From Conchocele bisecta (lineage: Eukaryota > Mollusca > Bivalvia > Lucinida > Thyasiridae), in the NCBI GenBank assembly GCA_029237695.1, contig CM055278.1:67695188-67759187 (forward strand): a stretch of DNA of 64,000 nt. Direction: 5' to 3'. The notes below the pieces were generated by a model, which saw only the letters and a list, made by a program, of their open reading frames with translations, did no database searches and was not told the origin of the DNA. Within the stretch, counting starts at the first letter, position 1. Each line of letters opens with the position of its first letter. This document shows, piece after piece, positions 1,393-41,200 of this stretch. A program made the translations under genes and the position numbers.

Positions 1393-2440
1393 TCACTGAT
1401 CATCTGCTACATTATTGACACAGCCTCCTTCACACCTGCAAACGGACGTACATCGCACCCCAGCTTTGTTGCACTTGCAGTGACCTCGACATGTTTTTTG
1501 ACACCCACAATGGAGAAGAAGGGAACACGCCTTACTGGCATCATCCAGTGTTGTCCAGAACAGCAACCACTGGTTTGTTTTCACATGAAGCTCCCAGCCC
1601 CACCTGCTGAAGTCAGGGATCTCCTGATGAAACGTGACAACCTGTCGCCAAATAAAACATGCCTGAAGGTTTGACCTCTTTGAATGTTCAAACAGTGCAG
1701 CCTGTGTGGGAGGTATGGCCTCAAGTGAGCGTGATCCGTGTGAGAACAAATTTTGCCTCGCCTGGTTCACCGTCGCAGCACTGCAACTCTTGCTGTACAT
1801 GATCACATGAAAGCGCCCAAGCTGTTGCATGTGTACTGAGTCTATTGTGAATGTGTCAGGGTTGTCAGTAAGTTCTAGCAATGTCTCCGTCATTTCTGGC
1901 ATGCTCTCCCATGCAGCCCATGCTGTCTTCTTTCCACATCCGAGGAGCTGAGACGTCGTGTCACATCCACTAATGGCATGGAAGAGAGGAATGGTCTGTG
2001 ATCTCGATGGACCTAACCTTGAGAATAAATCATGGACTGGAATATCTCTGTACATGTAGTTCTTGCCACTTCCAAAAGCAATGGCGAGAACGACAATATC
2101 ACTATCTACGGTGCGGACATATGCTCTCTTATGCCCTTGACGTGATGCGTGTGCTAGATAGTTGATGATACGCGAGTCTGCCTCACTGTGGTTGCAGGGT
2201 TGCAGTTCTGATGTGTCGCATGGCTTGTTGGACAAAACAGTTTCATCCTTTGTTGTAAGAATGAGGATGTTATTCAGAGTGATTTCAGAGAGTTTCTTGC
2301 TGCAGAAAGAGAACAGTTCTTTCTTGTTCTTGGTGTTCATAAGATATTTCTGCCAGTCTCTCTTTGTGATGGGTGTGCTGCCTCCTGTACCTATCTGTGT
2401 TCGTGGACCAAAACTGTAGTTGGGTCTGTATCTTCAAGCT
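1393..2440 (-). pseudogene. Transposon-like protein, C-terminal part: FEN1-like nuclease core plus CXC domain
   Basis: The open frame reads 315 residues downstream of its first Met (2340-1393) and stays open further upstream. It shows SEADSRI (residues 52-58), VDSDIVVLA (78-86) and SGCDTTSQLLGCGKKTAW (124-141), in the order, spacing and chemistry of the E-x-E, D-x-D and G-S-D/helix-hairpin region of flap endonuclease-type PIN-like nucleases. The C-terminus is a Cys-rich HCGCQKTCRGHCKCN..CTSVCRCEGGC block resembling a Tesmin/TSO1 CXC DNA-binding domain. It belongs with the upstream frame at 2285-3406, apparently separated by a frameshift near 2400-2440. I recognise the type as a multi-copy invertebrate uncharacterised protein family but cannot name it. 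Confidence 0.75.
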
Positions 2441-3406
2441 CGTCTCTGGGTATACATCCCACACTGCATCGATTCGCTGAACAGATGGAGCCGGATGACT
2501 CTTCAAGAAGGGAACTACATGCATGGGAACATAGTCGCTGAATGTAGCTGCACGAGTTGGCCGCACCATGTGAACCACCGCTGGCATGTCCAGGGCCTGG
2601 ACTGTGACATCACGAGCATCAGCGTTCGCTGTTGTCAGGGCACCGAGACACTTAAGAATATCGGATTTTGTCACTGATCTCAGACCTCCACGATCAGCAA
2701 GAGAGGGTGGCCCACGTTGATTCTCGAATCTGAAGAAATCTGGTCGGAACTGCAGAGATAGGAACAACTGAGTAACAAGAGCTGTGTTCTTTTTAAGAAC
2801 ACCCACTGTCTCGGAACGCTTTGAACGAACATCTGGGCGATTGGCAAATGTATATATGCCGTTGCGCTTAATGGTGTCTGAGATGGTGACTGAAGCAGTG
2901 TGCACCCTGGTTTGAACATACTTGTCATGTAGAGATTGGCCAAGCTCATCTACCTGATTAAGTGATGCTGCCACCTCGGGTACCATGACATCGTGAGTGT
3001 CGATAGTAGCAACAAGCTCATGACCGGTTTCCAGGAATGGGTTGCTGCGGTCTCTAAGCACACCCATAAACTTCTTTACATCAGTGATGAAGCGTACTTG
3101 GAGAGCATGCGACTCTTCATGATGAGCGAGAGATGTGTCACCCACAGAGAGTAGACTCTCAAATTGGTCAATTAGCCTCACAGAATCTGGACCAGCCAGC
3201 ATGTAGAGGGCAATCGCATCAGTATCATCATACATGTCTGACAAGCCACCAGCACCTGCCTGCAGTTTTCTGTTGCTGTGTTCATGGGACTGGTCTTTGG
3301 CCATAAGCGAGAACTTGTGACGAGAACGCTGGACAACAACATGTCCCTTCTTGAACTCTGCATACACGTCTGGGTGGTTCACAGGCAACACGACCAAATC
3401 TTTCAC
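2285..3406 (-). pseudogene. Transposon-like protein, middle part (possible transposase core and nuclease N-terminus)
   Basis: An open frame of 373 residues in a different phase from 1393-2440. The N-terminal third has NHPDVYAEFKKGHVVVQRS, KDQSHEHSN and GAGGLSD, comparable with [16 protein letters not shown] and DQGLEQ of the second element in this window (33668-34324). Near the C-terminus, VQALDM and later RIDAVWDVYPETSLK resemble the first two acidic strands of FEN-type nucleases. Everything upstream of residue 1 (after 3406) is missing or unrecognisable, so the copy is truncated. No terminal repeats found. Confidence 0.7.
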
Positions 3407-3529
3407 ATGGATGCAGGGTTCAATCTAGGCCAAAAATTAGGGAGAAGTGACTTCTCCCTCCAGGCAAAATAGGGAGAAGTGAGGGGAAATTAGGGAGAAG
3501 TGATCAAAATCATATTTTCGCGGATTTTT

Positions 3530-29200: not shown

Positions 29201-32200
29201 AGGTAATGTACAGAAGTGTAATTTTGCCGTGATACATGGATCAGAATGTAGAATATCTATCTGAGGCAGAAATAGCTCACATCTGTAAAACGTGGGATAG
29301 CTGTGCTACATGGTGTCTGTTTCAGCGGAGTGGATGTTCACCCAGGACACGAGTAACGAGTTCCAGGACATGATAGACACCGTGTACAAGGAGACGAGCC
29401 AGCATCTGCTGGAGGTTCTGCACTCCAAATACAAGTTCATGGATCACCTAAAGGTATGTTTAACCTTTTCATGTGAAAGATACACGATTTTGACAGAAAA
29501 TTTTAAAATAATTTTTGGTTCTGCACCAAAGTATATGTTGTTACCACTCATTGTATCCCCCAGACTACCGTCGGGGGATACTATGGATTTGACAGCGCGC
29601 CGCGTCCGCGTCCGCCGCAGACACTTCTTGTCCGGAGCATAACTCGAACACCCTTTGGAATATTTTCATGAAACTTCACACATGCATAGACCACGACCCG
29701 AAGGTGTGTCGCGCACAAGAATGACAACTCTTGCATAGCTAATTTTTTAGTTATCTCCCTTTTTTGTTTCTCGCACTGATTTCGTGTCCGGAGCATAACT
29801 CCACCACCCTTTCGAATATTTTCATGAAACTTCACACATGCATAGACCACGACCCGAAGGTGTGTCGCGCACAAGAATGACAACTCTTGCATAGCTAATT
29901 TTTGAGTTATCTCCCTTTTTTGTTTCGCACACCGATTGACCATAACTCGACCACCCTTTGGAATATTTTTATGAAACTTAACACATTCAATTAGACCACG
30001 ACCCGGAGGTGTGTCGCGCACAAGAATGACAACTCTTGCGTAGCTAATTTTTCAGTTATCTCCCTTTTTTGTTTTGCGCACTCTACAAACTGGACAATAA
30101 TGCATGAAGACCTGTTTTCTCGTCTGCTCTGTATACCTTTTCTCGTGTGCTCTGTACACCTTACCTGTAGAGAGAACAATAGAAACTGGGAGAACCATGT
30201 GCTAAGCATGGGCTAGCATGTGCAGATGTCCACTGCTTGACCACTGCTTGACCACTGCTGACCAGGTAATTTATACAGGTAAATCACTATTGGGTACTGT
30301 GTTGAAATGAAAATATTGTGGCATTATGTGGACCTCTGCAGATATATGTAAAATAAATATAGGAACAAATATTAAAAAAAAACAAATCTGGTCTCCAATA
30401 GCAAGCATTATTATTTTTAGACTTTTTTTTTCATTTTTTTTTTTTTTTTTTTTTTTCATTTTTTTTTTTATTTTTTCATTTTTTTTTTTCAAATTATTTT
30501 TTCAATTTGACTGGAAAAAAAATCTGGGCTCCAGTAGCAAGCATTATTATTTTTAAACTTTTTTTTTTTTTTTTTTTTCCATTTTTTTTTTTTTTCATTT
30601 TTTTTCATTTTTTTCAAATTATTTTTTCAATTTTTGTCCAGTAGCAGAAGGTCGTAAGTGCTATATACAGACTATTCACCTGTACATGTGCTAGCATGTG
30701 CAACTGACCACTGACCACTTACAGGTAATTTATACAGGTAAATGATTATATTACATTTCCGTAAACTGTGTTGAAAATATTGTGGCATTATGTGGACCTG
30801 TGCAGATATATGTAGATAAATATAGGACTATTAAAAAAAATTCTGGGCTCCAGTAGCAAGCATTATTATTTTTAATTTTTAAACTTTTTTTCCATTTTTT
30901 TTTTCCATTTTTTTTTTTCAAATTCTTTTTCAATTTTTGTCTAGTAGCATAAGGTCGTAAGTGCTATATACAGACTATTATCATATAATAAAACAATTAT
31001 TGACTAGTGAGCCATATAGTGCATTATGGAATGTAATGACGCTCGATTTTTGTGCCAAAATTGATTTTTTTGCAGTTTTGTTAACGATAGGGATTGAATT
31101 TACAGAAAAAATAGGGGTTGAATTTTTTTGACAATTTTTTGGTGTATTTTAGGGCTTTTTAAGGGCGACAACCCCCATAAAATGACCAAATTAATATGGT
31201 AAGCGATGACGTTCGAGCTCTGTACCCAAATTACATTTCTTTGCAGTTTTGTCAACCACGCTGGGTAAATAAGAACAAAAAAAAAACACAGGCAACTCAT
31301 TTTTTTTTACATGTTTTCGTGTACTTTTAGGGCTTTTAATGGGCGAAAACCCGCAAAAATGGCAAAAATCATATATGGTATGTGTATGACGATCGATTTT
31401 TGTACAACTCTTGATTTTTCTTTGCAGTTTTAGCAATCATAACAGGTAAATTGACAGAAAAAATAGCTGTGACGTTCTTTTGGCATTTTTGGGTGTATTT
31501 TGAGGGCTTTTTTGGGGGGTTGACAAATGGCAAAATCTATATCTCAGCTCATATACACGCTATCTCCGTGATCTAGGTGTCTATAATGGGGTTTCTGCAG
31601 GCGCTGATATCGATTTTGATGGTTAGGACAAGATTTGAGGTTAAGGTCATGGACTAACGGTCAACGCGAGGTCATTATTGGTCACAAAGCGTGGAATATT
31701 ACCGATTTATATAGTTTTTTGTTTCATGTGAGAAATTACCAATGATAACGTTATTCACATGCGAGGTGACATTCAGGTTCAGGTTATAAAGGGCAGTGTT
31801 TAATAGCAATCACATACATAGTTTCTACATTTGTCTGAAACTCATACGGACGGGAGAATGAATTCCAATAAAATCCAAGAAAGCCCCACAATACACTGCG
31901 TCCTTGTACATGTGTCAACTTTACGCCGAACAGGCAGCATTCGGCATATTTGGAAGGTCAATTAATGATTAACTGAATATTATCATGCCTGTTTATACTT
32001 CTTCATCGTCAACATCAACTGTGTCACGATTGCTGTTTTGACATCCTTGGGCATGACACTTACAAAGGGGTGTGCATGGGAGGTTGTTATTGGCACATGA
32101 ACAGTTGCGTGCACAGGCAGACGATCGACAGCCGCATTTGATCAGCTCCAGAACAGCTTTTGGAGCAGGTAGCTCAAGACACCGCACTGGGAATATTGCA

Positions 32201-35200
32201 CCATCGTCGAGAAACCCAGCCACAGTCTTCCAATCTGGGCAGTACAGGATGTGTGGTGATATAGGCTTTGTTAACTGTACAAACAAAGTTCGTTCGTTGT
32301 ATATGAGGCAACAGTGTAGCCCTCGTGGGTGGCAACATCTCAGACTCCATGTTTTTCGACCTAAAGAGCTCCCAGCGAAGTTTGGGAAGTGTTTGCGGGC
32401 CATTGGCAGAGTAGACGCGGCACACAAAGTGTTCCAGAGGTTGCATGTCCTTCGGAAGTTCTCCGTTGATCAGTTCCGTCGATGAGAGAGGATCATCTCC
32501 CAATCTTTGGAAGGCGTCGACGATCTGATCAGTTGGGCTCAGCTTGAAGTATTGCTCTGTGATGCACCTCTTCTTTGTCACACCCAGGAACTTACCGCCC
32601 CAGTCAGCACCGGAGAAGTTGTGTATCCCAATTAGACCTTGACAGTGAGGACGGCCAATGCTTCTTACTCTCTCCATGACATCTATCTTTCTGAACTTGT
32701 TGCCTTTTCCTGTGTGAAATTCTAGGGTGGTCAAACTCCCTAAACGTCCATGTGCTCCAAGGTCAAGGAGAGGACCAAGACATCAGTATCCGGAGACGCA
32801 ACTACAACATGTCTGAATGCACAGTCCTTGATGCAGTGAAGAACGTGAAGGGGGATCTGTGAGTCGGCCTCCTCGTGTCCATGTGTTTGGAAGTCCTCTT
32901 CAAGTGTGTGGGGTGAGTTTATCTTGATATTAGTGTCATATGCGACGATAATCCGCAGATCGTGCCCCGCAAACTCCTGTAGAAGTCCATGTGCAAGAAG
33001 TGCTTGAAGCTGTCCCTTGGTCTTTGAGCAGGATTAAAAGTCCCGCAGGGGAACAGTTGTGATGGTTCATCTCGTCATGGACCTCATACCCAGCACGTGA
33101 AGCTTCATCCGATGTAGCTCTCTTTGCCCTTGTCTTTTCCTTCAGACTAGTGGAAGATATTGATCAAATAATATCCTAGCTTCAGTGTAGCCACCCTTAT
33201 GTACACGCCTTTTGATGGTCTTGATAAAGGCGTGCTTCAAGTGCGTGATTTTCTTCATCCCAGGTGTTTTCTTCATCGCCTGCAGGAGCGCCATTGCATC
33301 GAGAATGTAAGTTGATGCGGTGGGATGGGAAACCGATTGTTCCGGTTCAGGGCTATGCGATGCAGAGGGTTGAGCCTCGACTGCATGCATGACGCTAGCC
33401 TTGTCCGTTGCTAAGAGGAGTGTCCCATCAGGTGCAAACATAGAACGGGCATCACTGACATTTCGTGAGTGCCAATTGTCTCCTCGAGCTTTGGTAGGAG
33501 CATCGGCCTTGATTGACTGATAATTAGGCATCTCCCAATGAGCTCCCTATCCTCTCGCAGTTTGATCACCTTGTCACCAACCTTCAGTTTACTCTTTAGT
33601 TTCCAGTTGCTGAAGGTCTTGAACTTTGGCCTGGTCATTGGATCCCAAATTGATAGTTTGGATGTTATTAACAGGCGTTCGTCCACGAACTTCTGGTAGA
33701 GCTCTTGCCCCAGATTCGGATAGTCTTGTCTGGGATAACAGCAGATGAGCAAATGTTCTTCACAGTGTACCTCATGTAAGGGTTTCCCTCACAGTGGAGA
33801 ATGATGCTGTTCCTCAGTTTAAGAGCATTCTGACTCGATCTAACACATATATCTCCTGCCAGCTGGTAGTGCTCCTTCTTCTCTCCGGTCAAAGTCTTCG
33901 GAAAAGGCAGAAGATATTTCTGCACCAGTCGTGCAAGGTGAGGTGCTGTAGTGACAAACCTGTCGAGGGCAGCTTCATCCTGTGTGATGCCAGGGAGCGC
34001 ACCGTGCTTTTTGAGAACTTTGATCTCCTGCTCCAACCCTTGGTCTGTGAAGAGGTTACAGAATGCTTGCATAGACTTCGTGACAACGAAGTCACCATTC
34101 TTGAGGGCTTCCCATGTTGTGGGATCATCCTCTTCCAATTGATACATCTGTGCCAAATGTAGAGGCATTAGTCTTGCATAGTTGATTAAGCCATGGAAGT
34201 GGAAGTACTTTATGTTTTTCTCAATCGCAGCAAGGGAGCCTTTCCAATCTCTCGATCTCGCTGCTGCAATGATCTCGAGGAGAGCATCAACCTGATCGAG
34301 ATAATTGTCAAAGAAGCGGCTCATTTCGTCACCATCTCCAATTGCAGCCTATTCCATTTGGACATTATCTGAGTAGTAGCTTCCTATGTCTTCGTATATG
34401 GCTACCATTTCAGGGTCACGGTCATGGAGGGCTCTACGCAGCGCTACACATCGTCCCTTTATCGCTAGTGGAGGGGTTTCTCCGACGACTGCGTCCAGTT
34501 TGACCAGGAGAATGGCAAGACCATTCATTATATGGTATTCCACGGCTCTGTGTAGCTCTTTACCACTGTATATCCCTCTCAGTGCTGCAGAAGAATATAT
34601 ACCTGTGTCCACTGCTATTGTGTCTTGGCCACTCCCCTCTGATGTTTTGCCAAGTCCATGGAGTACCGCAAATACGATGTGGAGAAGTCCAGCCCTCAGT
34701 ACCCAATTCTCGTTTTTGACAGATTCCTTCAACTGAATTGCTCTTTGATAGAGGTCGAGGTCAAGAGTGATCAGAGTCCGTCTTTCAGGACCAATAACAA
34801 CTGCCGATATGTCTTGTGCCAAGCATAGAACCGTGTATAGAGTAGCATAATCAGTGGGAGACGTTCGAATGTAGCGGTGCCCAACTTCCACATTTGTCTT
34901 TGTTGGTGATGGTAGCCATCCTGGTTTTTCAATAGAAGATGCTGCGTTGCAGCCCAAGTCGGCATAACGTCACATTTCTTCAATCTCGTTTTCTTTTCCT
35001 TTCTTTCTGTTACTTCCAGTAACAGTATCTCAGTATTTTCGTCATCGCTGGCATGTTTAGATTCCGCATTGGCTGTGGCACCTCCGCTGTCTTTATTTTC
35101 AGATTCATCAGACAGAGGGGGACTTGTGAATAGGTTGGCTAATGCCCACGTGTGGGTGAACTTTGAGTATTGTGTGAGTAGGTCAGCTCCACGTCCGACA

Positions 35201-38200
35201 GAGTAACTGGGGAACCTAATTGGAGTCAGTTGATCTCAGGCTCATCTCGGTAATTGATTTCCACCTGGTGTGGCTTCTCGGGGGGCTTGGACGGGATTTG
35301 CAATGGTGTATTTATGAGTTTCCCATCCTCATCCCGCTGGAAGAGTACCAACAGCGTCCCGTGAAATGTGTTTTGCCCATACGCTGTGTTTTCAAGAAAG
35401 TCAATGTTGTCCGCAGCAAAACCAGATTGGTACGTTTCGTTTGACAAAGTCAGGGAGGCAGTACCCTTCGGTTGACAACATCCGCTGCTGAACTGCGAAC
35501 TCCACCCTCCTCTGAAGATTGAGTATGCGTTGGTAGTCACTTCCAATGTACACTGTGGACAGCATAGAAATTAGATTGTGATCTCGTACTCGAAAGTGGA
35601 TTGCGAGTGGGACGCCAATAGAAAGGGGAGTTTCCACTGTCTTCTTGAACCCACAGACGTCTTTAGTTTGACTTGTCTCTGACTTCTTGAGCTCTGTACA
35701 ATCAGCTGGCAGACAACATCAACATTCTTCTTCACTTCTGCTTCTCGTTGTCCTGAGATTTGTCTAGCTTCACAGCCATACATGATGCGAGCTATAAGAA
35801 ACTCTAACATCGGGGGGTTTTCGAAATCGTTAAACTCACCGTGAATTTCCAATCTCTTGCACCGAGAACCTCCTGTCTCAAGGCACGAGCTAAATCTATG
35901 AGAGCACGGGGATCTGTATCTGTAGTGGCAAAACTCAACGGCTTGTCCTACTGATTGCTTCCTCATAAACCCTGTGGCTGTGAATAGGATTTGGAGGCTG
36001 AACAAATTCAACATCTGGTACATGCTGTTCAATCAACTCTTTCAGGTATTTCTTGTGGTTGTCACTTTCATTGTTATTAATGTGCCTCTCCTTCAAAAGG
36101 TCGATGTAATATGAATTTAACTCATTCATGCTGAGGACGCAGCCTTCTACACTAAGAGAATCTCTCACATGTACAATAAGCTCAGCATCACACACACTTC
36201 TTACATGTCTATATGCATCACTATCACCCGGTTCCTTGCAGTGTCTGTCTGCAACCCTGAGACAGTCTCTATGGTAGTATTTTTCTAATGCTGCTGCATC
36301 TCCAGGTTCCAATATTTCAGCTATACTCAATCTGACTAAGTCGTCATTAGTAGACCCTTTGATAGCTAGAAGATGCTGACCCATAGAATCCGATAACAAC
36401 TCTTGTGACAATTTGGACAAAAGGGAGCATGTGTGGAACATACATTTCTTTTCCTTCGGAAGAAACATTACCACCTTTCTTTCTAAGTAGAGGGGTCGCT
36501 GTCTTAGATGTCTCTATCTGTGTGGACGCCACGTTTCGGCGCCGACGACGGCACTTCAGAAGTAGGTGGTGCATCAGAAAACATTGGCGTTAGGGAACGA
36601 GCACGTTTTCTACACATCTCTAAGTTTTCCTTGTTTACAAGAGGCTTGCGACATCGCTGTGATAACAGACATCACGCAAATCTGACTCGGACAAACTACT
36701 GAAATGACCAGCCAGCGATTTTAGGTGCACATCCCCTAGACTAGCCCGCTCGAGAACCCTTTCTTTCAGGTCTTTCAGAAGAGATATGTCAGTTGTATCA
36801 ACAAGTTTATTATTGATAGAGTCACCCTCTTTACAAATGATGCAAGACCTCGAATCTGTCGATTTTCGTTTCGACATTGCCGAAACTCCTCAAATCTTTA
36901 CGGATTATTTTGTGTTTGTGTTGTTTCTTGTACAGAATAGCAAAGTCGATGCACACTGTAACGACATTCAAAAAGAATGTGCATGTATTAACAAAACCAC
37001 AGCGTTGGTAATATAGGGCCAATCATGCTTTACAACCAGATGTAGTGACACTATTTAACAACGCTGCGATTTATTCACAACTGATCAGACAAATTGTTGT
37101 TGTTGTTGTTATATCTTGGAGACCAGCCGCTGTATTTTCGGCGCAACGTCTTTCGACATATTTCAACGTAGAACGTAGATAAAACATGTGTATGACATTC
37201 AAACGCATACGCAGGATTATATGGAATATGCAACTGTCTGGCGCAACAGACGTTATGGCTTATGTGACCAGCCTAGTATCCGGTCTACTGCAAACTCGCG
37301 CAACTTGATCATTTGGGCGACTCATCTGATCGAACTTAGCAGGTACATATGTAGAACTTGCCGAAATGGATTTTACCATTGAATTCTCCGGCTCCAAATT
37401 GCACATGCCCTACATGTACATAAATTCCCATACAAACTGGCCCGTATACGAGTTCAGCTACTTTGACCGAGTTCATCCTCTGTGTCCATTGGTGACCTCG
37501 TGGTGACCTCGTGGTGACCTTTACTTTATGACATTGACCTCAAATCATGTCGTGACCATCATAATCGAGCTGAGCGCCCCGCAAAACCATATCTTAGACA
37601 CCAAGATCATGAAAATAGAGTGTATGTGAGTCGAGATACAGATTTTGTCATTTTTTGGGGGATTGTTGCCCCTGAAAAGCCCTCAAATACAGAAAAAAAG
37701 GTCAAAAAAATGTTTAATTACCTATTTTCGAATTCATCACCCGCTATGGTTCATAAAACTGCAGAAAAAACAAGTTTGGCACAAAAATCGAGCGTCATCA
37801 CATACCATAATAATTTTTGCCATTTTCTGGGGAATGGTCACCCCTAAAAAGTCCCAAATACACAAAAAAAATGGTCGAGAAAATTCAACCCCTATTTTTT
37901 TCATTAACGTACTTCCTATTGTTGACAAAACTGCAAAAAAATCAATTTTGGCACGAAAATCGAGCGTCATCCCATTATCTTACTCTTCCATAATGTACTA
38001 ATAGAATATAATCTGATATTCTATGGTTCACTAGTCAATAATTGTATAATATGTTCGGGCCAGTGAAAATTGCTTTCGGGCCCAGGCTCGAGGTCAAGGC
38101 GGGACAAGGCGAGGCATCTGATTCCGCGGAATTCTTGTTTACTTATCTCCCTTTGTTGTTTCGTGCTCTGATTTTGTATCCAAAGCATAACTCGAACACG

Positions 38201-41200
38201 CATATACGCATTGCTCTAATGGTCCTCTACCGCCCTGTGCCAAAACTACGTTCGTTCTGCCCCCGTCAAGCCCAGGGTCAAGGTCACATACTTAGTGCTT
38301 CAAAAACCATAACGCTTGGGTAAATATCTTATACTCTTGTTTTCTTTCATGGATCATGGATCATCTTCATATTTCATATACGCATTGCTCTAATGGTCCT
38401 CTACCGCCCTGTGCCAAATCCACGTTCGTCCTGCCCCACCAATCCCAGGGTCAAGGTCACATACTTGGTGCTTCAAAAACTTTAACGCTCAGGTAAATAT
38501 CTTATAATTTTTATTTCCATTCACGGATCAACTTCATATTTCATATACGCGTTGCTCTAATGGTCGTCTACCGCCCTGTGCCAAATCCACGTTCGTCCTG
38601 CCCCCGCCAAGCCCAGGGTCAAGGTCACATACTTAGTGCTACAAAAACTTTAACGCTCGGGTAAATATCTTATAATTTCTGTTTTCTTTCATGGATCTCT
38701 TTCATATTTCATATACGCATTGCTCTAATGGCCCTCTCTACCGCCCTGTGCCAAATCCACGTTCGTCCTGCCCCCGCCAATCCCAGGGTCAAGGTCACAT
38801 ACTGGTGCTTCAAAAACTTTAATGCTCAGGTAAATATCTTATAATTTTTCTTTCCATTCACGGATCAACTTCATATTTCATATATGCGTTTGCTCTAATG
38901 GTCCTCTACCGCCCTGTGCCAAATCCACGTTCGTCCCGCCCCCGCCAAGCCCAGGGTTAACATCATATACTTAGTGCTTCAAAAACTTTAACGCTCAGGT
39001 AAATATCTTATAATTTCTGTTTTCTTTCACGGATCAGCTTCATATTTCATATATGCATTGCTCTAATGGTCCTCTACCGCCCTGTGCCAAATCCACGTTT
39101 GTCCTGCCCCCGCCAAGCCCATGTGAAGGTCACATACTTGGTGCTTCAAAAACTTTAACGCTCAGGTAAAAGAAAATTTTGACTTGCAATTTGGCCTCAT
39201 TTATTATCAAAGCGATATGTGGGACATCCGTGTTCTATGAACACATTTTCTAGTTTATTAAACTTCACACATGCATAGAAGACGACCCAAAGGTGTGTCG
39301 CACGTAAGAATGACAACTCTTGCGTCGTTAATTTCTTAGTTATCTCCCTTTGTTGTTTCTTGCACTGATTTCGTGTCTGGAGCATAACTCGAACACCCTT
39401 TGGAATATTTTCATGAAACTTCACACATGCATAGACCACGACCCTAAAGGTGTGTCCCGCAAGAATGACAACTCTTGCATCACTAATTCTTTAGTTATCT
39501 CCCTTTGTTTTTCCGTCACTGATTTTGTCTCCGGAGCATAACTCGAACACCCTTTTTTCAAACTACTTGTTTATCTGGGGAGGGGGATACACATGCGCTT
39601 GTCGACAAGCGTCCATTTCTAGTTTAAACTGTCTCGCCGAGACGGTTCAAATGAGTGGTAACAACATATGCATTCATTGAGAAATGAAGAAAATGAAAAA
39701 AATAATTGTAAATTGAGATACCCTTGAATTGATATCCGACATTAAATGAGCTAACCAGTAGTCATGTACCACCAGTTATCAATGACACACCGTGTATACG
39801 GAGACAAGTCTATATCTACTGGAGGTCCTCCGCTCCAAATACAAGTTCATGTACGTTTAACCTTTTCATGACAAACGTTTTTGACCGAAAATATTAAAAC
39901 AATTTTTGTTTTTCTGCACCGAAGTATGTGTTGTTGTCATTCATTTGAACCGTCTACTGGAGGTCTGGGAGTTGAATTTGGTTATTGCCCATTATGAAAG
40001 TAGTAAGATTATTACTGATACTACTGCTTTTGGGAGGGGGCCAAGTGATTCTGGTGTGACGAGGACCTGGCATCAGATCAGGATTATTCTTATTTCTGGG
40101 CTGACTTTATAATTTTTTGTCGAGCCCACTTGCGGAAAGCGAGACATAGTGATCACAATGACGTCCGGGTGTCCGTCCGTCCGTCCGAAATCTGCGTTAA
40201 AGTTTTTAAGTACCTTATATCTCTGCAGTCCTAAGTGCCATTGACTTTAAACTTCATATGCTTATTAGTCATCATCCATATATTCATGCTGTGTCCCACT
40301 CATGCGGCCCAAGGTCAAGGTCAAATGACTTAAGTTTGCGTTAAAGTTTCTGTCAAAATTTGCGTTAAAGTTTTCACATACCTACTATCTCTGTAACCGT
40401 AAGTCAGATTTGCTTGAAACTTTGTATGCTTATTGGGCATCATCTATATAATCATTCTGTGTCCCACTCATGCGGCCCCTGTGCCCCAAGGTCAAGGCCT
40501 TATGACTTAGAAGTTTGCGTTATTATAAAATCTGCGTTAACGTTTTTACATATCTTATATCTCCACAATTGTGACTCCAATTTACTTAATATAACTTCCA
40601 ATACTTTTCCTCATCCATATTTTCATTCCATAGCCTGCCCATGTGGTCCACATGCCCAAGGTCAAGGTCAAATGACTTTGAAATTTGTCTTAAAGTTTTT
40701 ACATACCTTATATCTCCACAACACTTAATCTGATTTACTTCAAACTTCAAATAATTATTTATTATCATCCATATTTTCATTGTGTAGCCGACCCATGCGG
40801 CCCACATGCCTAAGATCAAGGTCAAATGACTTTAAAATTTGCGTTAAAGCTTTTACATACCTTTATCTCCACAACCTTAATTAAAACTTCAAATAAATAC
40901 ATTCTGAGACCATCAAATGCTTCGGTGGGATCGACATGCGGCCCGCGGCCATCTGGTTTATTTTCTGGGCTGACTATATAGTTTTTTTATTGTAAATATT
41001 CAGTTTTGATTTTGGGATTTTCCCCCCATTTGTATATGTACTTGAACATGTACATGTACTTGTACAGGTAATATATGGGATTTAGTACTTAACCATTGAC
41101 CCAGCCTTAAATGACCTTAGCTGTTGATAGGCCGTTAAACCCCAACCAACACACCTCCACTCCAAATATAAGTTTATGGGCCACCTAAAGGTTCAGTTAG

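Follow-up and report, generated by a model that had tools for sequence, protein, structure and literature searches.

Among described DNA transposons, AcademX elements code for a nuclease, of the XPG/FEN type in Repbase usage (X stands for XPG). No statement of an XPG-type nuclease in Academ was found in the literature searched, PMC10045372 having just the word "nuclease." According to that paper, target-site duplications (TSDs) are 9 to 10 bp for AcademH and 3 to 4 bp for AcademX, a difference tied to the encoded helicase and nuclease (Kojima, PMC10045372). An expansion of Academ elements has been reported for bivalves, the mean length of the curated elements being 5.6 kb (PMC10294476). Here, we analyzed a stretch of 64,000 nucleotides from the bivalve Conchocele bisecta (assembly GCA_029237695.1, contig CM055278.1, positions 67,695,188 to 67,759,187, referred to below as the window), which carries a transposon encoding a transposase-nuclease on the minus strand. 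Sequence comparison and structure prediction show the anatomy of the element, its 3-bp duplications, the fused frame in its relatives, the residues of both catalytic sites, and the folds predicted for the two domains. In our judgment, this is probably a young, low-copy cut-and-paste transposon, most likely of the Academ/AcademX type, in which one protein combines a DDE transposase with a nuclease of predicted FEN/EXO1 fold that would serve the 5′ strand.

The combination of the two enzymes in one protein was evident from database relatives. When a 575-amino-acid C-terminal read-through of the window copy was used as the query (7,998 candidates scored), 106 database proteins matched at E up to 0.001, the best with an E of 1.1e-199 and 54% identity, so that the nuclease motifs lie far beyond chance. 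A second search with residues 1 to 420 of relative P0002 yielded 64 proteins, 11 of which are 1,592 to 1,636 amino acids long and hold transposase and nuclease in one frame, some of them without the first Cys/His module. Thus, the two domains form a single chain in these relatives. Hosts named among the matches are Paramuricea and the crab Chionoecetes in the read-through search and Nematostella and Acropora in the P0002 search. A pattern scan of viral_contigs gave 53 matches, but no viral relative was confirmed among them.

An earlier note, made from the letters of the window alone, had described a FEN1-like nuclease domain at 32600..33752 within a transposon bearing terminal inverted repeats (TIRs). 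Its quoted motifs are all present in the stated order on the minus strand, where they are spread over four pieces, with the reading frame switching back and forth between two; the domain does lie there, but the fold reaches beyond the end given in the note and covers about 33405 to 32220. As listed in Table 1, the motifs are given FEN1 residue numbers that we take to be the corresponding ones. The note had also proposed to examine whether the acids persist across genomic copies, and ten nuclease residues were indeed kept in 29 to 30 of 30 loci, including the window copy, the exceptions being a single Gly and two alignment gaps, each in one copy. Among aligned database relatives, for which only rows with a residue at the given position were counted (64 to 103 rows), conservation was similarly strict: 62/64 and 78/82 for the D34-like and D86-like acids, 82/82 and 78/83 for the K93-like and R100-like residues, 99/103, 100/102, and 101/102 for the HEEAD acids, 101/102 and 100/103 for the D179/D181-like acids, and 99/101 for the D233-like acid. 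The model of relative P0001 predicts a FEN/EXO1-type fold and not an unrelated one, with the K93/R100-like segment modeled as helix 307-314. On both points that the note had named as possible refutations, loss of the acids from the copies and a different fold, the outcome favored its reading. With an E limit of 0.1, Pfam XPG models did not match any of the 41 members, and a profile search of PDB FEN sequences failed to return FEN1 even with the limit set at 10. Using hhalign against T5 FEN, we obtained a weak alignment that sets six T5 FEN acids opposite six nuclease acids. Identification as FEN1 from sequence was rejected, since the profiles gave none and the T5 FEN alignment is weak. Support for the fusion of a FEN1-like nuclease to a DDE transposase in a TIR-bearing element comes from residue conservation, from the predicted fold, and from relatives of ~1,600 amino acids whose frame is uninterrupted.

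The earlier note had also named N-terminal Cys/His modules, a possible DDE core, and a CXC domain at the C terminus, and the corresponding features, the last as a cysteine pattern, are present as well. The first Cys/His module of the window copy has D after YHS instead of the usual EC. In relative P0115, the DDE residues are D161, D386, and E627, all conserved. The transposase half gave VIA structure matches to Hermes and RAG1 that were modest in Z, and Foldseek alone returned nothing significant for this half. For the CXC piece of the window, comparison with Pfam TCR gave an E of 0.055 and 14.2 bits, under the curated cutoff of 23.5; with an E limit of 0.1, the model matched 8 of 41 relatives, the lowest value being 1.6e-4, and relative P0156 scored 23.9 bits, above the cutoff.

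The bounds of the element were determined from its other copies. Their termini are TAGTRCATTATGGAA, and because they end at TAGTACATTATGGAA and TAGTGCATTATGGAA, the element was delimited at 31017 to 38000, flanked by a TAT duplication. A conspicuous 29-bp inverted repeat (30988-31016/38022-38050) was rejected as the transposon TIR, since it is absent from the other copies examined. This repeat belongs to the palindromic target site and is not a terminus of the transposon. TSDs of 3 bp were found in 26 of 31 two-ended copies (L024 being left out of the pairing), 20 of them consisting of A/T only, and a 4-bp duplication matched in none of the 31.

Copies were sought in the source genome of 1.89 Gb. 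The coding-strand search gave at least 45 genome matches, from which 30 loci were made (102 candidates, 40 scored), and the 5′-terminus search, in which 40 of 64 candidates were scored, gave at least 31 places with an identity of 89% or more over almost the entire query, indicating a low-copy family. The majority sequence of 22 copies has one open frame across the 1,475 codons fetched. Substitutions amount to only 0.14 to 0.52% from the majority in 20 of these 22 near-full copies; L006 and L009 (5.73% and 7.54%, respectively, over the fetched stretch) were excluded from the substitution and indel count, and L027 (2.37%) and L031 (9.66%) are either of greater age or more heavily changed. In the 20 copies, 274 substitutions were counted along with 249 indel events, 162 of which involve a single base. 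Such near-equal numbers are unusual for natural decay. Evolutionary decay was therefore dropped as the chief cause of the frameshifts, and the high indel/substitution ratio suggests that indels from long reads were left uncorrected in the assembly. Gene frameshifts in this assembly call for careful reading, short indels being very frequent relative to substitutions among the near-identical copies at loci L004 to L025.

Table 1. Features of the transposon, its encoded protein, and its target site in the window
Feature	Position	Strand	Remarks
Whole DNA transposon	31017..38000	-	6,984 bp; TAGTACATTATGGAA at the 38000 side, TAGTGCATTATGGAA at the 31017 side; same ends in other copies
Target-site duplication, left copy	31014..31016	.	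ATA on +, TAT on -
Target-site duplication, right copy	38001..38003	.	
Left subterminal inverted repeat, diverged tandem units, about 0.65 kb	31023..31674	.	Element against itself by blastn
Right subterminal inverted repeat, diverged tandem units	37504..37976	.	Element against itself by blastn
Left half of palindromic target site, outside element	30988..31016	+	Not found at ends of other copies
Right half of palindromic target site and short loop	38001..38050	+	
Coding region for the transposase-nuclease, ~1,630 codons	31993..36877	-	Traced over 16 pieces, the frame changing between them
N-terminal modules of the zinc-binding Cys/His type, CxxC..YHSxC and CxF..C..YHRxCLR	36200..36877	-	Alignment of relatives and window reading
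First DDE aspartate (AADNID)	35409..35411	-	Intact codon in 25/30 loci, 5 full or partial gaps; 32/32 relatives with residue
Second DDE aspartate (TLDLDLY)	34760..34762	-	27/30 loci, 3 gaps; 42/43 relatives
DDE glutamate (DQGLEQ), past long helical insertion	34031..34033	-	26/30 loci, 4 gaps; 40/41 relatives
FEN1/EXO1-fold nuclease domain	32220..33405	-	Model of relative P0001, residues 221-608, mapped by tblastn
LDAM acid, FEN1 D34 place	33298..33300	-	30/30 loci
LFDQY acid, FEN1 D86 place	33163..33165	-	30/30 loci
Segment with K at FEN1 K93 place and last R at R100 place	33119..33148	-	K in 30/30, R in 29/30 loci
EEAD acids, FEN1 E158/E160 place	32863..32874	-	Acidic in 30, 29, and 30 of 30 loci
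DTD acids, FEN1 D179/D181 place	32782..32790	-	30 and 29 of 30 loci
SGAD acid, FEN1 D233 place, then VTKK helix-hairpin	32603..32605	-	30/30 loci
Wider motif spans	HEEADS 32877-32860, SPDTD 32796-32782	-	
C-terminal CXC (tesmin/TSO1-like) cysteine pattern	32028..32139	-	Pfam TCR, below cutoff in window copy

Transposon superfamilies differ in how the nontransferred strand is cut or cleaned up, and we know of no studies of its handling in Academ. In the mechanism that we propose, the DDE site would make 3′-OH ends and join them to the target, and the nuclease would serve the other (5′, nontransferred) strand. It may cut the 5′ strand at the donor and so free the element, by analogy with TnsA complementing TnsB in Tn7, or it may remove a 5′ flap after strand transfer, ahead of the filling of the 3-nt gap; binding to DNA or to the ends of the transposon would fall to the Cys/His modules and the CXC tail. 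The suggestion of the earlier note that the nuclease may process flaps or excision intermediates is plausible. In the strongest competing explanation, which we nevertheless hold to be unlikely, the domain would work as an EXO1/XRN-like 5′ exonuclease or RNase that might, for example, resect the donor break in favor of repair from the sister copy, instead of cutting transposon ends. We favor the role on the 5′ strand, since a 5′ nuclease acts on exactly that strand and since other DDE elements, such as Tn7, pair a nuclease with the transposase. Such an arrangement would provide, in the manner of TnsA/TnsB, a nuclease-transposase pair within a single chain. With both active sites conserved in one protein and near-identical copies (mostly 0.14 to 0.52%), the question of the nontransferred strand becomes testable.

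Palindromic insertion sites bear on a further possible activity of the nuclease. The reconstituted empty site of the window copy is a palindrome with 29-nt arms and a 6-nt loop, and L016, L020, and L021 likewise lie inside strong palindromes. This makes 4 of 31 sites versus 1.46% of background windows drawn from this 64-kb window alone (binomial p 0.001), with two of the four copies at the center of one shared near-perfect palindromic repeat family. For 23 sites, comparison with their own flanks gave a Wilcoxon p of 0.31 and a Fisher p of 0.02, and comparison with shuffles gave a Fisher p of 6e-5; 6 of the 23 had z under -2, including L022, in which no pair spans the point of insertion. The idea that the element generally targets hairpins was dropped on account of the own-flank Wilcoxon result and of the 26/31 sites that are nonpalindromic at a looser threshold, and we regard the association as a lead rather than a finding. 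It appears quite unlikely that the FEN-like nuclease, besides serving the 5′ strand of its own ends, would recognize extruded palindromes (cruciforms or hairpins) and aid insertion there.

As to classification, the earlier note knew of no named superfamily with such a combination, yet nuclease-coding AcademX elements with 3- to 4-bp duplications were already in print (PMC10045372). A FEN-type nuclease would also agree with the remark in that paper that TSD length in Academ follows the accessory enzyme (PMC10045372). Because it codes for a nuclease, has a DDE core, and makes 3-bp duplications, we file the element as a probable AcademX member, by the published description of AcademX rather than by sequence comparison. 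It is improbable that the element instead represents a superfamily of its own, still unnamed, in which a nuclease fusion and 3-bp duplications arose by convergence. In favor of this reading, such duplications also occur in Harbinger and Zator, and the likeness to Academ is one of description. Against it, nuclease and 3-bp duplication agree with the AcademX description (PMC10045372), and the bivalve expansion of Academ and its mean curated length (PMC10294476) point the same way. Even less credible is a catalytically dead PIN/FEN fold that binds branched DNA only, a reading in favor of which the profiles detected no similarity to known FEN sequences, the activity being a prediction. Against it, all 16 long relatives keep the K/R pair as well as every metal-binding acid (one of these being Glu in 15 and Asp in 1), and each position is conserved in 94 to 100% of the 64 to 103 rows with a residue there, a pattern expected of a working site. 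Finally, conservation by itself could indicate a host gene with incidental transposon features, but this reading is refuted by about 30 dispersed copies that share their ends and mostly have target duplications.

Several observations concern relatives and surroundings of the element. Relatives P0035 and P0045 are filed in a bacterial metagenome bin (Sedimenticola) and are likely DNA of an animal host caught in that bin. A second, strongly diverged relative occupies 1396-3424 of the window on the minus strand, with 23 to 26% identity to P0100; spread over two overlapping frames, it shows the nuclease-like motifs ALDMPAVV, AVWDVYPETSLK, HSEAD, TVDSD, and SGCD together with a tail resembling CXC. 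At 29310-29460 on the plus strand lies a short exon-like stretch without a Pfam match, which we take to be from gamma-tubulin complex protein 2; if this holds, the transposon may lie inside that gene in antisense orientation. Adjoining the element, tandem units of roughly 165 to 180 bp (GACCTTGACCCTGGG..TTGGCACAGGGCGGTAGA) were seen by eye at 38200-39000.

Taken together, the protein can be compared with several known systems. With FEN1/EXO1/XPG (Rad2) nucleases, it shares the predicted fold, the acid set, the K93/R100-like pair, and the helix-hairpin; it differs in having no profile-level similarity to them (a weak hhalign alignment) and in placing the nuclease inside a transposase protein with a CXC tail. 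The likeness to hAT (Hermes) and RAG1 lies in an RNase H-type core with a helical insertion ahead of the last glutamate, although structural similarity is low (root mean square deviation of 5.4 to 8.5 in the 20 best rows). The duplications made by those transposases are 8 bp or 5 bp, in contrast to 3 bp here, and the nuclease domain is additional. Tn7 offers an analogy, in that a nuclease (TnsA) and a DDE transposase (TnsB) share the two strands, but that element is bacterial, and its TnsA, of the restriction type, is a protein by itself. KolobokE, KolobokD, and KolobokP are likewise DDE transposons that acquired a nuclease; these are described in PMC9587614 as PD-(D/E)xK, DEDDh, and His-Me finger enzymes, whereas the one found here is FEN-like. 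The closest likeness is to AcademX, with no difference seen at the level of its published description; AcademX belongs to a DDD/E transposase superfamily, codes for a nuclease, and makes 3- to 4-bp duplications, 3 bp in the element described here.
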